The translations under genes were made by a program, and so were the position numbers. DNA of 64,000 bases from Bacteroidales bacterium (GTDB taxonomy: Bacteria > Bacteroidota > Bacteroidia > Bacteroidales > Muribaculaceae), in the NCBI GenBank assembly GCA_015061085.1, contig SUXG01000001.1:124001-188000 (forward strand), given 5' to 3'. Of this stretch, positions 32,743 to 63,943 are shown piece by piece. Positions within the stretch are counted from its first letter, which is position 1; each line of letters starts with the position of its first letter. Under the pieces are notes generated by a model. That model had not been told where the DNA came from, searched no databases, and saw nothing but the letters and a program-made list of their open reading frames with translations.

Positions 32743-32817
32743 GGCCCATTCGTCTATCGGTTAGGACGTGAGATTTTCATTCTCAAAAGAGGAGTTCGAC
32801 TCTCCTATGGGCTACCA
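32743..32817 (+). tRNA. tRNA-Glu (anticodon UUC), copy 1
   Basis: A cloverleaf can be drawn: acceptor arm GGCCCAT paired with ATGGGCT, D arm with GTC...GAC, anticodon arm TGAGA-TTTTCAT-TCTCA giving anticodon TTC, T arm GGAGT-TCGACTC-TCC. CCA (32815-32817) is encoded. Copy 2 (33177) is identical over the 72-base body. Confidence 0.96.
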
Positions 32818-33176: not shown

Positions 33177-33248
33177 GGCCCATTCGTCTATCGGTTAGGA
33201 CGTGAGATTTTCATTCTCAAAAGAGGAGTTCGACTCTCCTATGGGCTA
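33177..33248 (+). tRNA. tRNA-Glu (anticodon UUC), copy 2
   Basis: Identical in its 72-base body to copy 1 (32743-32814), but the bases after the discriminator are CGA, so CCA is not encoded and must be added by an enzyme. Confidence 0.96.
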
Positions 33249-57660: not shown

Positions 57661-57870
57661 ATAAAGTGAGCGAAGCGAGAGGTATCCGATAGGTTTGGTA
57701 ATGGCTTGGCATCAGTACTCAGCGAGAGATACCCCCGGTGCAACGAGCGCAGTGTGTGAGATACCCCAATCGGGGTATTATTTCGATAACCGGTGGTAAC
57801 CGAGCGTAACGAGTGCCACCACCGGAACTGAAGTGCACATATATACCAACCCCAATCGGGGTTGCACATA
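57661..57870. repeat. cluster of REP-like palindromes
   Basis: Three near neighbouring hairpins: ATACCCC/GGGGTAT around AATC (57761-57778), CCGGTGGT/ACCACCGG around 20 bases (57790-57797 and 57818-57825), and AACCCC/GGGGTT around AATC (57848-57863). Several copies of short GC-rich words (AACGAG, GAGCG, CGAAGCGAGA) lie between them. No credible gene is present. The composition is unlike the AT-rich surroundings. From memory, similar DNA is scattered between genes in many Bacteroidales and often gives false short proteins; I cannot check that here. Confidence 0.65.
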
Positions 57871-58159
57871 GCCTATACTGTTAATGTGAGGGATATAGCT
57901 CGCCAGGCAGCGAGTTTAGATGATTTATAGTGGGTTTCAGGTGTATGTATGTTCAGTATGGGAAAGGAAGAAAAGAACAATGCTTGAGATTGCAGAGGCA
58001 GTATGAGACAGACGTTGTCGGCGAAATAAATACTCAAATGTGAGTATTAAAACCTCAAATACGGATTAAAAATAGACAAAGAAAGGGATTGTGTAAGAGG
58101 TAATATTTCAGGAACTTTGTGATAGAAAATTTTAGGTATTCAAAAGGAAATAATGACTA
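57871..58159. other. gene-free leader region before the Xus-like operon
   Basis: About 290 bases with no gene. An eight-base inverted repeat (AATACTCA and TGAGTATT around AATG, 58029-58048) could be an operator for a regulator of the operon that follows, but its distance from the start is 112 bases and I see no clear -7 box. No Fur-box-like sequence was noticed. Confidence 0.35.
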
Positions 58160-60538
58160 ATGAATAGTAAATCGTATCTCAAAGTTTTTGTGCTTTTGAT
58201 AGCATTGATGTCAAGTAGTCTCATTTGTTTCGCTTCAGAAAGTTTCTCAGTCAAGGGCGTCGTGCGAGACACCGAAGGCGGGGTTGTCTCTTATGCAAAT
58301 GTAGCGCTGAAGGGAACATCCTACGGATGTGTTACAGATGAAGACGGCAAGTATCATATTACAGCTCCTGCCGGAAAATACACAATGTCGGTCACAATGT
58401 TAGGCTATTCAAGCGTCGAGAAAAAAATCGATCTCAGCAAGGATAATCTGTTGGATGTAAAATTGACCGATTCGGGTATAATGCTTGATGAGGTTATTGT
58501 CGCTTCAAGTGCAGTATCGAAAGTGCGTCAATCAGCCTACAACGCAATTGGCGTAGATGCAAAAGAACTTAAAAATACGACTAAAAATTTAGGGGATGCT
58601 TTGGCAAAGGCTCCGGGTGTAAAGCTAAGGGAGTCGGGAGGAGTCGGCTCTGACATGCAGTTGATGCTCGACGGCTTCAGTGGCAAACATGTGAAAGTCT
58701 TTATCGACGGAGTGCCTCAAGAGGGTGTAGGCAATTCGTTCGGGCTTAATAATATTCCGATTAATTTTGCCGATCGCATCGAGATTTATAAAGGAGTGGT
58801 GCCGGTCGGTTTTGGTACAGATGCTTTGGGAGGAGTGGTGAATATTATCACTTCCAAGAAGCGAAACAAATGGTTTTTAGATGCCTCTTACACATTTGGC
58901 TCGTTTAATACCCATAAGTCGTATGTCAACTTCGGACAGACGCTCAAAAACGGCTTTACATACGAGATAAATGCGTTTCAAAATTATTCCGACAACGATT
59001 ATTCGGTCTATGCGCCGGTGGAAGATTTCGCAACAGGAAGAATAGATAAGAATAAATATGAAAAGGTCAAACGTTTTCATGACACCTATCATAATGAGGC
59101 AGTGGTGGCAAAGGTCGGTTTTGTCTCAAAATCGTGGGCAGACAGATTGATGTTGGGATTTATCTTTTCCAATATGTATAAGGATATTCAGACCGGGGTG
59201 CGTCAAGAGATAGTCTATGGCGAAAAGCATCGCAAGGGCTACACATTGATGCCCTCGCTGGAGTATGTGAAGCACAACCTTCTTGTCGATGGGCTTGACT
59301 TGTCGATGTCGGCAAACTATAATCGTAACATGACGGAGAATGTCGATACGTCGTCATATAAATATAATTGGCATGCCGAGAAAAAAATGCTTAATTCGCC
59401 GGGCGAGCAGTCTTATCAATATTCTCGTTCGTACAACAACAATTGGAATGTCACAGCTACTATCAATTACAGATTAGGGAAATATCATCTATTCACATTC
59501 AACCACGTTTTTAATGGCTTTTCTCGCTCCAATGAGTCGTTGTTGGCAAAGGAAGTAATGAAGTATGCCTTTGATAAGCAGACACGTAAAAACATCTCCG
59601 GCTTGTCATATCGTCTGATGCTTTCGGAGAAATGGAATGTGTCGCTCTTTGGAAAATACTATGATTTGTATGTCAGTGGTCCGATCGCGACAGATGCCAA
59701 TCAGACCGATTATGTGAAGACATCGCGAGCGCTTGGCTCGTTTGGTTATGGCGCTGCCGGGACATATTTTGTCTTGCCGCAATTGCAGGTGAAGCTTTCT
59801 TACGAAAAGGCTTATCGCCTACCGACTATCGATGAAATGTTTGGTGATGAGGATTTGGAAATAGGCGACATCGGCATAAAACCGGAAAAGAGTGATAACC
59901 TGAATCTTAACATCAGTTATAATACAAAAATCGGTCGCCACAATATCTATGCTGAGGGAAGTCTTATCTATCGTGATACAAAAGATTATATTCAGCGAAA
60001 TATTACCGATCTCAGTGGTGGTAAATTTGCTGCGTCTTACATCAATTATGGCAAAGTGTTGACAAAAGGTTTTAATATTGCGTTGAGGTATAATTATGGT
60101 GGTTGGGTTAGTGTTGGAGGAAGTTTTTCTCAAATGAATGTTCGCGACAATATGAAGACAGCTCTCGGCTCGTCAGCTACAAACATCGCCTACAAGCAGC
60201 GCATGCCTAATATCCCATATCTCTTTGCCGACTCAGATGTGACGTTGACATGGCGTGGACTTGGCAGAAAGGCCAACAATCTGTCGCTGACCTACGACAA
60301 TCACTATCTGCATAAATTCTCTTATTATTCTGCGAATATCGGTGCCAATAAAAATGATTATATCGTGCCTACGCAATTTTCGCACGATATCTCCTTGACA
60401 TATAGCATCGCAGACGGAAAGTATAATGTCATGGCAGAATGTAAGAACTTTACCAACGAGCGACTCTATGACAACTTCAGTCTGCAAAAAGCGGGACGGG
60501 CATTTTATGTTAAATTCAGAATATATTTAGGAAATTAA
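58160..60538 (+). CDS. TonB-dependent outer-membrane receptor (XusA-like)
   Basis: A 792-residue outer-membrane transporter. The signal peptide (residues 1-26) is followed by a carboxypeptidase-regulatory-like beta-sandwich (about 30-108, from [20 protein letters not shown]), the plug domain (about 115-235, with [18 protein letters not shown] and [15 protein letters not shown]) and a 22-strand barrel closing with [11 protein letters not shown]. No SusD gene follows; instead a DUF4374 lipoprotein gene is next, 14 bases downstream. This matches the Xus xenosiderophore system of Bacteroides (receptor, DUF4374 lipoprotein, PepSY membrane protein), so catecholate siderophore uptake is the best guess. 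Confidence 0.9.
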
Positions 60539-60552
60539 TAATACATACAATT

Positions 60553-61962
60553 ATGAACAGAAAATTTTTCAGCAAATCATTCTTTGCTATCGCCTTGACA
60601 TCAGTGGTCATGGCATCGTGTGACAACGGCTCAAGCCAAAACGACGAGCCTCAATTGCCTAACGAAAAGAAATCAGCGTATGTGATCGCTTCGTCGGTCA
60701 CAGCATCAGGCAACACAACTAACGTGCTTCTCACAGCCGAATCGCTCGACGAGGGCGTGGTCTCACCGGTCAACAACGGATTGGTCAACGATGGTGCCAG
60801 CCAATGGGTGTTCTACGACAATAAATACCTTTATGGTTTGACCTACAATCAAGGCAATGCGGGCACAACTCGCTCGTTTATTCTTAACTCAGAGGGTCAG
60901 ATAGAGGCACGCTCAAGCGAATATGCCGTGAAACGATTTACTACAAATGGCATCTACGGCGACTATGTCATGACCTCATCGACAGGCGACGGTCCGACCG
61001 AATGGAACGATGAAAACGGATATACTCCAAAATCATTCCTACTCTCTTATCTTCACGCCGAAAATGAAACATTCACCACCAATGACACTCGCAATGAAAT
61101 CTATCTGTCGGAAAATTTCCTCGGCAATGGTGAGTATGTGACTCTCGCCGGTATCCTCGAAAGCGGTGGCAAACTATATAGCGCAGCTATCCCTATGGGA
61201 CTCAGCCAATACGGCACAAAAGCAGAAGGTGGAAAATATGTTTTGCCGGGTAACGAGGATTTGGTCAAGACAGAAGCCGGAGGTTCAAATTCAAGTGCGT
61301 ACAAAAAAGATGAATTGCAATGGACTCAATATCCAAACGAATGTTGGGTGGCTATCTTCGACGATGAAAACCTCAACGGTAAGAAGCTTATCAAGACCGA
61401 TAAAATCAGCTACGCTTGCGGCCGTCAGAAATCACAATATTATCAGACAATTTGGGAAGCCGACAACGGCGACATCTATGTGTTCTCACCAAGCTACGCC
61501 AAGACTATGACCGACCCTCGTCAGCAGACAACGCTCGATGCCGGCGTAGTCAGAATCAAGAAGGGCACAGAGCAATTCGACAACTCTTACTACTATAATA
61601 TCGAGGCTCAAAGCGGTGGTCGCTCATTCCTTCGCACATGGTACATCGCAGGCAACTATTTTCTCATGCTGATGTATGACCGTCCATTGACCGAGAAAGG
61701 ATTTGTAGCTAATCAATTGGCTGTGTTTGATGCATCTACCGGCAAATTGACTGCCGTAGAGGGACTTCCTTCAGCTGAATTGATTTCAGGCTTCGGCTAT
61801 GCGCCATATTGTGAGAACGGCTATGCCTATATCGCTGTGACCACTACTGAAGGCTACCCTGCAATCTATAAGATTGACCCTGCGACAGCCACAGCTAAAC
61901 GTGGTGTGGAAATTCAAGTAACGCAGATCACAGGTGTCGGCAAGTTGAATCAGGTAGATTAA
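60553..61962 (+). CDS. DUF4374 lipoprotein (XusB-like siderophore binder)
   Basis: A 469-residue surface lipoprotein. The lipobox VVMASC places the acylated Cys at residue 23, followed by DNGSSQNDE, which fits the acidic lipoprotein export signal of Bacteroidetes. The mature part is a DUF4374 domain, probably a propeller of repeated strands, for example [40 protein letters not shown] and DGDIYVFSP-like units. In Bacteroides thetaiotaomicron the DUF4374 protein XusB binds ferric enterobactin outside the cell; the same role is proposed here. GC content is higher than that of the esterase gene which starts two bases after it. Confidence 0.88.
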
Positions 61963-61964
61963 AA

Positions 61965-62804
61965 GTGAAAGTATTCAGAAGCATTATAATAGTCAGTTTT
62001 CTCCTGCTCGGCATCGTAGTGAGAGGGCAGGAGATTATATCTATAGGTAATGCCTACACTCTGCATTCACAAATATTAAATCAGGAGCGCGACTACATGG
62101 TCTATCTTCCGGAGGACTATGGTAAGGATACCACAAAGCAATATCAAGTGATATATCTGCTCGACGCAGAGTCGTTTTATTTGCCGGTGGTGGGTATGGT
62201 GAAAGGCTTTTCAAAGATGAAAGATAAGGCAGATGAGTCCACTATTGTTGTAGGCATCATAAGTGAGAATCGAACAAAAGATTTCACACCGGTAGCATCT
62301 AATTGCGGCAGAAATGGGATTGCCAATAAAGAAGAGCCGATGGCAGGTGGTGGCGCTGAAATGTTTTATCGCTTTATTGAAGAAGAGCTAAAACCGACTA
62401 TCGAAAAGGCTTATCGCACTAATACGACCGACATTCTTATAGGGCATTCCTATTCCGGTTTGTTCGCGTTATATACGATGTTTTATCATACCGAAAGTTT
62501 TGTTAAAGTGATTGCAATAGATCCGAGCTTATGGTGGGACTGCGGGACAATACTTGATGAGATAATGCTAAGAGTAAACGACAGGGATTATGTCGATAAA
62601 TATTTGTATCTCGGGTTTTCTATCAAGAAGCGCTATGATAGAAATGATGATATAATAGGAGATCTTAAACAACAATTGTGTGAAGATATACTGCCTAAAG
62701 CTATTAAATTGAACTATGATTATAAAAACTATCCTGAAGAAAATCATGGGACAGTAGCCATTCCCGGTTTTTATGATGGATTAAAACATATATTTGGAAA
62801 ATGA
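61965..62804 (+). CDS. alpha/beta hydrolase esterase in a Xus-like operon
   Basis: A 279-residue exported esterase of the PF00756 (Fes/IroE/BesA-like) family. The start is GTG at 61965, giving a signal peptide (VSFLLLGIVVRGQ). The nucleophile is Ser162 in ILIGHSYSGLFALY, with the His in YPEENHGTVAIPGF (His261); IAIDPSLWWD (184-193) is the conserved core. The gene is visibly lower in GC than both neighbours and overlaps the next gene by four bases (ATGA). Its place between the DUF4374 and PepSY genes suggests that it cuts the ester backbone of an imported siderophore such as enterobactin to free iron. Other esterase substrates are possible. Confidence 0.82.
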   Translation: MKVFRSIIIVSFLLLGIVVRGQEIISIGNAYTLHSQILNQERDYMVYLPEDYGKDTTKQYQVIYLLDAESFYLPVVGMVKGFSKMKDKADESTIVVGIISENRTKDFTPVASNCGRNGIANKEEPMAGGGAEMFYRFIEEELKPTIEKAYRTNTTDILIGHSYSGLFALYTMFYHTESFVKVIAIDPSLWWDCGTILDEIMLRVNDRDYVDKYLYLGFSIKKRYDRNDDIIGDLKQQLCEDILPKAIKLNYDYKNYPEENHGTVAIPGFYDGLKHIFGK

Positions 62805-63943
62805 GAAAGATTTTTAAGAAGTTACATTTATGGTTGTCAGTGCCATTCGGATTGGTCATCGCTATCATCTGCTTCAGCGGCGCAATGCTCGTGTTTGAGC
62901 AAGAGATCACCGAGGCAGCTCAACGCGACATGGTCTATGTCGAAAAGGTAGGCGAAAAGCCGTTGCCGGTCAGCGAGATTGCCTCAAAGGTGGCAGCTAC
63001 ATTGCCCGACAGCATCAAGGTGACAGGCGTGGTCGTTTCGTCCGACCCTGAACGAAGTTATAAGGTCAACATCTCCAAGCCGAAAAAAGCATTTGTCTAT
63101 GTCGATCAATACACAGGCGAGATTAAGGGCAAAAACGAACGACTCGGATTCTTCAATGTGATGTTTAGGCTTCACCGTTGGCTGATGGATAGCAAACCCG
63201 AGGACGGAGGCATCTATTGGGGCAAAATGATTGTCGGAGTCTCTACGCTCGTCTTCGTCGTTATCCTCATCACCGGGCTTGTGATATGGATTCCCAAGAG
63301 CCGTAAAGCGTTGAAAAATCGCCTTGCAGTCTGCGCTACCAAGGGATGGAAACGTTTGTGGTATGACCTTCATGTTGCCGGTGGATTTTACGCATTGCTC
63401 TTGCTCCTCGCTATGGCATTGACAGGCTTGACATGGTCATTCTCATGGTATCGCACAGGTTTCTACAAGGCTTTTGGCATTGAAACTCCTGCCAAGCCTG
63501 CATCGCACGCAGAAGCGAAGTCCGAAAGCGACAAGCGTGGCAAAAGCAGACGTGGCGAACGAAAAGAGAAGAGCGACCCGTTTGCATCGTGGACCGTAGC
63601 TCTTGACAACGTGATGAAGACCGAAAGCGACTATAGCCGTATCACAGTCTCTGACGGACGTGTCAGCGTCTCGCGAGACACGTTTGGCAATCAACGAGCA
63701 TCCGACACCTATCGCTTCGACAAACGCTCAGGCGAAATTACCGAAGTGCAACCATACGCCGATGCTGATGCAGCCACAAAAATGAGAGGGTGGATATACT
63801 CTGTGCACGTTGGCAACTGGGGAGGAATGTTGACACGCATCTTGACATTCCTTGCCGCAATGTTCGGCGCATCACTCCCACTGACCGGCTACTACCTATG
63901 GATTCGCCGTCTCTACCGAAAACGCACCAAGCAATGCCCGTAA
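62801..63943 (+). CDS. PepSY-associated TM protein (XusC-like)
   Basis: A 380-residue inner-membrane protein. Four membrane helices are visible (near 12-34, about 143-167, about 195-218 and about 345-367), with PepSY domains between helices 1 and 2 and between 3 and 4. His residues in FRLHRWLMDS, LHVAGGFYALL and SVHVGNWGG could bind heme, as proposed for ferric-reductase-like PepSY proteins. A charged insertion (about 235-262, SDKRGKSRRGERKEKS) lies between helices 3 and 4. It completes the Xus-like set and would reduce or pass iron at the inner membrane. The ATGA overlap with the esterase gene shows coupling. Confidence 0.88.
   Translation: MRKIFKKLHLWLSVPFGLVIAIICFSGAMLVFEQEITEAAQRDMVYVEKVGEKPLPVSEIASKVAATLPDSIKVTGVVVSSDPERSYKVNISKPKKAFVYVDQYTGEIKGKNERLGFFNVMFRLHRWLMDSKPEDGGIYWGKMIVGVSTLVFVVILITGLVIWIPKSRKALKNRLAVCATKGWKRLWYDLHVAGGFYALLLLLAMALTGLTWSFSWYRTGFYKAFGIETPAKPASHAEAKSESDKRGKSRRGERKEKSDPFASWTVALDNVMKTESDYSRITVSDGRVSVSRDTFGNQRASDTYRFDKRSGEITEVQPYADADAATKMRGWIYSVHVGNWGGMLTRILTFLAAMFGASLPLTGYYLWIRRLYRKRTKQCP

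Follow-up and report, generated by a model that had tools for sequence, protein, structure and literature searches.

We analysed a stretch of 64,000 nucleotides from the genome of a Bacteroidales bacterium of the family Muribaculaceae (hereafter, the window), which corresponds to bases 124001-188000 of contig C3 (SUXG01000001.1) in the assembly GCA_015061085.1 (2.16 Mb, 47 contigs, 81.5% complete). Close to the end of the window there are four genes which, judging by their families, order and conserved residues, quite probably constitute a complete catecholate-type operon for xenosiderophore uptake (Xus) with a built-in periplasmic esterase acting on trilactone siderophores.

The four-gene operon and its components

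All four genes are located on the + strand. The first one (58160..60538, +) encodes a XusA-type TonB-dependent receptor with an N-terminal carboxypeptidase-like domain (Pfam CarbopepD_reg_2, Plug and TonB barrel), whose residues 5-791 align with XusA of Bacteroides thetaiotaomicron (9gbc_A) over nearly the whole length (1023.9 bits). The second gene (60553..61962, +) encodes a XusB-type DUF4374 lipoprotein with a catecholate hook (PF14298, 660.6 bits), matching B. thetaiotaomicron XusB (9gbc_B) at 3.4e-129 and the structure 9gar_A at 3.8e-127; a lipobox-like ASC motif and an acidic tail are seen by eye. The third gene (61965..62804, +), with a GTG start, encodes an IroE-like esterase (PF00756, 77.6 bits at a cut-off of 22) carrying Ser162 and His261, and the fourth (62801..63943, +), a XusC-type PepSY inner-membrane protein, the presumed siderophore-iron reductase (PF03929 PepSY_TM, 239.2 bits; PF03413), which also matches 7abw weakly (E 0.0033). 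The successive intergenic distances are 14, 2 and -4 nt, the last one being an ATGA overlap of the esterase and PepSY genes, and the four genes form one tight operon. All components that mark a Xus system are thus present: the XusA-type transporter, the DUF4374 XusB, the PepSY XusC, and the catecholate hook with the L2-L4 residues. An earlier note on this DNA had read the receptor, lipoprotein and PepSY genes as Xus components and placed between the second and third of them a PF00756 esterase with intact Ser162 and His261, coupled to the PepSY gene by ATGA; the Pfam and structure-sequence matches and the gene coordinates bear this out.

The ligand-contact residues of B. thetaiotaomicron XusB are listed in PMC13142918 (PNAS, 2026). 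In our alignment N120, S121, S122, S168, Y189, Y411 and Q413 are identical in the window protein, R167 and R255 are replaced by Lys, S123 by Ala, and S254 by Glu. The window hook reads GGSNSSA (N246 S247 S248), with further contacts at K293 S294, Y98 and Q100. To compare operons we devised a catecholate signature (a hook no shorter than 14 residues, R/K-S at L2, Y and Q at L4) and applied it to 106 XusB loci, in which the esterase is intact in 18 cases, a fragment in two, and absent in 86; as the esterase-bearing loci were fetched for carrying it, these pooled counts describe a non-random sample. The signature is found in 16 of the 18 intact esterase operons vs 47 of the 86 operons without esterase (Fisher p 0.007, ignoring relatedness).

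B. thetaiotaomicron XusB aligns as a circular permutant of the window protein, window residues 154-466 pairing with 34-348 and residues 36-147 with 348-460. On the other hand, 9gar_A, which we take to be XusB of Barnesiella viscericola (the entry title reads just 'DUF4374 domain-containing protein'), aligns collinearly, in one piece. Ferric enterobactin binding has been reported for B. viscericola XusB, and the hook position is known to differ between XusB proteins, blade 2 vs blade 4 (PMC13142918); a permuted propeller would explain the hook of B. thetaiotaomicron XusB being in blade 2 instead of blade 4. The term 'permut' is absent from the main text of that paper, and a literature search pairing XusB with circular permutation found nothing.

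The profile and alignment of the esterase were built from 14 of the 18 intact operon-linked copies. Ser162, His261, D186 and E259 are invariant in all 14, and so is Q22; the N-terminus is hydrophobic and, by eye, resembles a signal peptide followed by RGQE. The closest solved structure in a single-sequence search is the IroE-like hydrolase 3gff (1.3e-33). The 14-esterase profile again places 3gff at the top (5.1e-59), followed by 2qm0, fungal siderophore esterases, PfeE (6gi0, 2.9e-17) and IroE (2gzr, 1.7e-13); the match to ferulic-acid esterases is confined to about 40 residues. The window gene is probably a siderophore-type esterase of the IroE/PfeE kind, with a predicted periplasmic location.

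The order of these relatives could also mean that the enzyme targets another ester-linked ligand (bacillibactin, salmochelin only, or a fungal siderophore of the fusarinine type), so that its presence reflects a shift of ligand and not a release step. Indeed, 2qm0, deposited as BES, and the fungal enzymes outrank PfeE, and the ligand loops vary among the esterase operons; however, the catecholate signature in nearly all of the latter makes such a shift unlikely.

An esterase, BDI_3403, has been noted in the Xus operon of Parabacteroides distasonis (PMC13142918); the four-gene arrangement is therefore already published for Parabacteroides and is not new. As in the window, the operon consists of XusA, a DUF4374 XusB, a predicted periplasmic esterase and a PepSY protein. 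The locus L193, which we take to be that of P. distasonis, has the same gene order and the same 4-bp overlap as the window; the esterases are 47% and the XusB proteins 60% identical, the hook contacts are GSG there and NSS in the window, and the two genomes belong to different families. L193 XusB, too, aligns with 9gbc_B in two parts (158-467 with 33-348 in the better of them) and with 9gar_A in one. The B. thetaiotaomicron operon XusABC (BT_2065-2063) resembles the window in its XusA and XusB homologues, the largely retained ligand residues and the PepSY third component, but comprises three genes, has no esterase and, by alignment, contains the permuted XusB. A literature search, covering few subscription journals and PMC10434189 in part, found no further publication describing an esterase in a DUF4374/Xus operon.

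Occurrence, gain and loss of the esterase

In a sample of 247 genomes of the order, DUF4374 scored above the cut-off in 16, in 13 of these at E < 1e-140, and only two of the 13 have the esterase beside it: the window genome and a Candidatus Azobacteroides metagenome-assembled genome (G030), an identical esterase being carried by a named record. The scan of genome contigs with the window esterase alone as the query yielded no confirmed match, and that with a two-sequence esterase alignment yielded one record, Candidatus Azobacteroides. In the window's family (198 genomes) DUF4374 occurs in 35 genomes; none of the 32 operons fetched from the 34 other genomes contains the esterase, some of the fetched stretches ending at contig edges. 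In the genus (111 genomes), setting aside the window esterase itself, the matches at E <= 1e-10 reach no more than 34% identity to it and lie in longer open frames (385-441 aa).

The closest relatives of the esterase are concentrated in a family of 118 genomes (that of genome G105) which we take to be Tannerellaceae. Here a relative at E <= 1e-10 is present in 21 genomes, and of the 48 places with the long-form DUF4374 (E < 1e-110; all were fetched) 15 have an intact operon esterase. The 18 strongest matches in this family (E up to 2.2e-30) are all in Xus loci. Of the 17 intact copies besides the window's, from this family and from Candidatus Azobacteroides, 16 directly follow xusB. In contrast, XusB is absent from all 20 fetched loci of more distant relatives (including L164 and L207-L212), two or three of which have weak receptor matches. 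Thus, an Xus-type operon containing a siderophore-type esterase is upheld both by the best solved relatives and by the setting of the strongest Tannerellaceae-like ones. The earlier note had regarded homologues lying mostly beside acetyl-xylan or feruloyl-esterase loci as speaking against it, an objection that has no bearing on the close family but may still concern the distant loci.

To follow the gain and loss of the esterase, we used a tree of concatenated XusA and XusB from the 83 of 106 loci that passed filters for score and length (FastTree, rooted at the midpoint, support values uninspected). On its leaves, 17 of which have an intact esterase (the L206 fragment being scored as absent), the presence of the esterase requires 11 changes (in 1000 shuffles, mean 15.7, minimum 10), and the type of the reductase gene, three (mean 13.2, minimum 10). 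Hence, the esterase is barely more clustered than expected by chance. Remnants are found at various stages: in L206 there is an internal deletion and the frame is broken; in L269 the signal peptide of the esterase is fused in frame to its C-terminal end; about the first 31 residues remain in L262 and perhaps 11 (a weak case) in L264; and in L205 the gene is split into pieces. In the latter locus a transposase-like ORF (open reading frame; by eye) lies between the XusB and Ferric_reduct-like genes, near the split esterase (L205:3900-4817). The loci L189, with the esterase, and L261, without it, are 98% identical in XusA, 97% in XusB and 93% in XusC. Judged by these sequences, the esterase is a labile accessory gene that has been gained and lost unusually often, with repeated loss.

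Loss is likely not the whole story. The window clusters on the XusA+XusB tree with L088 and L089, both without the esterase, and none of the nine searched genomes of their family has it. The window esterase itself is on a long branch and shares 34-49% identity with the other 17; for XusB the identity to the counterparts in the other esterase operons is 52-68%, except L204 (32%). The esterase tree is weakly supported; still, the XusA+XusB topology is rejected by the esterase data (approximately unbiased test, p 0.0045, 18 rows), and the esterase topology by the XusA+XusB data. This mutual rejection makes some exchange of the esterase in addition to loss likely.

The earlier note considered the esterase to be of foreign composition and inserted. 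Its guanine-plus-cytosine (GC) content is indeed lower than that of its neighbours (0.387 vs 0.421, 0.469 and 0.507). However, it falls at the 25th percentile (z -0.69) of 307 mechanically called ORFs of at least 150 aa drawn from 520 kb of this genome, and its third-position GC (GC3) at the 41st; the 8th percentile obtained with a smaller sample of 71 ORFs, which had favoured a foreign origin, did not hold. It is the PepSY gene that is the outlier (98th percentile for GC, 99th for GC3), and XusB is at the 89th percentile for GC. In the remaining 17 intact operons with an esterase, the GC of this gene is on average 0.007 above that of its neighbours and is below it in four; the dip is deep in L198 and L203 (-0.088 in L198 vs -0.078 in the window). 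Thus, the visible dip arises mainly because the neighbours are rich in GC. The codon-usage fit of the esterase (4th percentile) is mildly unusual.

The operon as a whole is bracketed by partial copies of a rare repeat, both in the same orientation; its unit of about 335 bp contains palindromic CCCC...GGGG motifs and shows a sub-period of 86 bp. The upstream copy (57752..57880, +) covers unit positions 1-127, and the complementary one, positions 95-275 (C3:188023-188219, +; L004:8024-8220), is situated 23-219 bases past the end of the window. In the 520 kb the repeat occurs at four places (blastn, E <= 1e-5): the two flanks, an array on contig C15, and a 41-bp fragment. The tandem array, on another contig than the operon, is at L213:3244-4206. 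Most simply, the operon would have come as a whole to a copy of the repeat or recombined into one. Among 20 congeneric stretches the neighbouring TPR gene has a divergent rpoN next to it in 14, and in none of the 20 is there an Xus operon at the TPR site; a clean empty-site comparison in the genus was ruled out by the rearranged order in the window genome. Elsewhere in the window Rfam at gathering scores gave nothing beyond two tRNA genes (32743-32814 and 33177-33248), equal in score and about 430 bp apart.

It seems unlikely to us that the esterase was recently inserted on its own from a foreign source. Such an insertion would agree with the lack of the gene in the nearest relatives by XusA and XusB and the searched genomes of their family and in the fetched operons of the window's own family, with the codon usage, and with the conflict between the trees. 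Against it are the ordinary GC and GC3, the lack of any close donor among the sequences found (at most 49% identity), the position and overlap shared with other lineages, and the repeats, which flank not the esterase but the entire operon.

Reduction, hydrolysis and the release of iron

A reductase-type gene accompanies the esterase in all 18 intact esterase operons, being a PepSY XusC in 12 and a Ferric_reduct-like gene in six. Among the 106 loci there are 81 with the PepSY gene, 20 with the Ferric_reduct-like gene and no PepSY match (L092, L192, L196, L199, L200, L203, L204, L205, L259, L272, L273, L276, L282-L285, L287, L288, L293 and L294), and five with neither found, two of them at contig ends. 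The Ferric_reduct-like proteins form a membrane family encoded downstream of XusB; PF01794 was matched in four of the five tested, and three His are invariant in all 20. The phrase 'ferric reductase' is absent from the main text of PMC13142918. In window XusC, His 9, 125, 191 and 336 are invariant in all 69 homologues longer than 340 aa. In L098 and L099 a single XusA-like receptor gene is followed by two DUF4374 genes side by side, and no reductase gene was found on the same strand, a PepSY match in L099 being on the opposite one. The replacement of PepSY by Ferric_reduct supports reduction as the role of this gene, and its constant presence argues for hydrolysis assisting reduction, which is the most likely function of the esterase. 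The earlier note had contrasted the esterase operon with systems that reduce the iron; this contrast is not borne out.

In the scheme that we favour, the cell-surface XusB would bind a ferric catecholate (ferric enterobactin or salmochelin, for example) and pass it to XusA for import; in the periplasm the esterase would open the ester backbone, yielding weaker, more easily reduced catechol-serine chelates, from which the XusC-type protein would reduce the iron, Fe2+ entering by another route. The esterase would be an accessory module gained and lost by lineages that retain the receptor, lipoprotein and reductase. We infer its export, its substrate, the order of the steps and the regulation by iron. 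The PfeA/PfeE system of Pseudomonas aeruginosa resembles this scheme in importing a foreign catecholate through the outer membrane and then exposing it to a periplasmic esterase, and both PfeE and IroE, from the salmochelin system, are matched by our esterase profile. To our knowledge, neither of these systems has a DUF4374 surface lipoprotein. P. aeruginosa is unable to use enterobactin without PfeE, and the release of iron there is described as involving hydrolysis and an unidentified reductase (PMC8001512), whereas in the window the reductase-type gene is within the operon.

Several observations weigh against this scheme. B. thetaiotaomicron XusABC uses ferric enterobactin with three genes and no esterase (PMC13142918), hence the esterase is not essential to it. 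Two esterase operons depart from the catecholate type, XusB being short and hookless in L204 and having Gln instead of R/K at L2 in L090, and the PepSY frame of L198 and L201 has a length of only about 225 aa, so that the reductase may be incomplete. As for the enzyme itself, no catalytic acid is assigned among the aligned residues, the NCBIfam enterochelin esterase equivalog NF007758 gives 25.5 bits at a cut-off of 222, and the AlphaFold model, made from two sequences, is too poor for use (predicted local distance difference test 47).

The esterase could instead mainly clear the siderophore that remains in the periplasm once XusC has taken the iron, or destroy it against recapture by the producer. 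Operons without the esterase are common and the reductase-type gene is near constant (101 of 106), so release may not need hydrolysis; yet hydrolysis belongs to the route of iron release in the PfeE precedent, and in 11 of the 12 esterase operons of the PepSY type the esterase and PepSY genes overlap by 4 bp, as would suit a shared step, although the six operons of the Ferric_reduct type have no overlap. On balance, clearance as the main role is rather improbable. A carbohydrate esterase present in the operon by chance is barely credible: PF00756 does include acetyl-xylan and feruloyl-type enzymes and the distant congeneric homologues are longer, but the closest Tannerellaceae-like relatives are in Xus loci, the best solved relatives are siderophore esterases, and the place and overlap are conserved across several lineages.

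The esterase might, though this is a tentative and somewhat doubtful suggestion, act as a quickly gained and lost switch: with it, the catecholate would be irreversibly cut before reduction and never return to the producer, whereas in operons lacking it the siderophore may outlast reduction and be used again. Were this true, gut species differing in this gene would be destroyers and recyclers of the same siderophore, and the loci L189 and L261, a natural near-isogenic pair with and without the esterase, make the suggestion testable. The wider pattern, a labile esterase next to a stable but interchangeable reductase, deserves testing as well. Commensal Bacteroidales can take up siderophores of enterobacteria (PMC13142918); whether these are destroyed or not would decide how much returns to the maker, and the Xus esterase is a candidate for making that choice.

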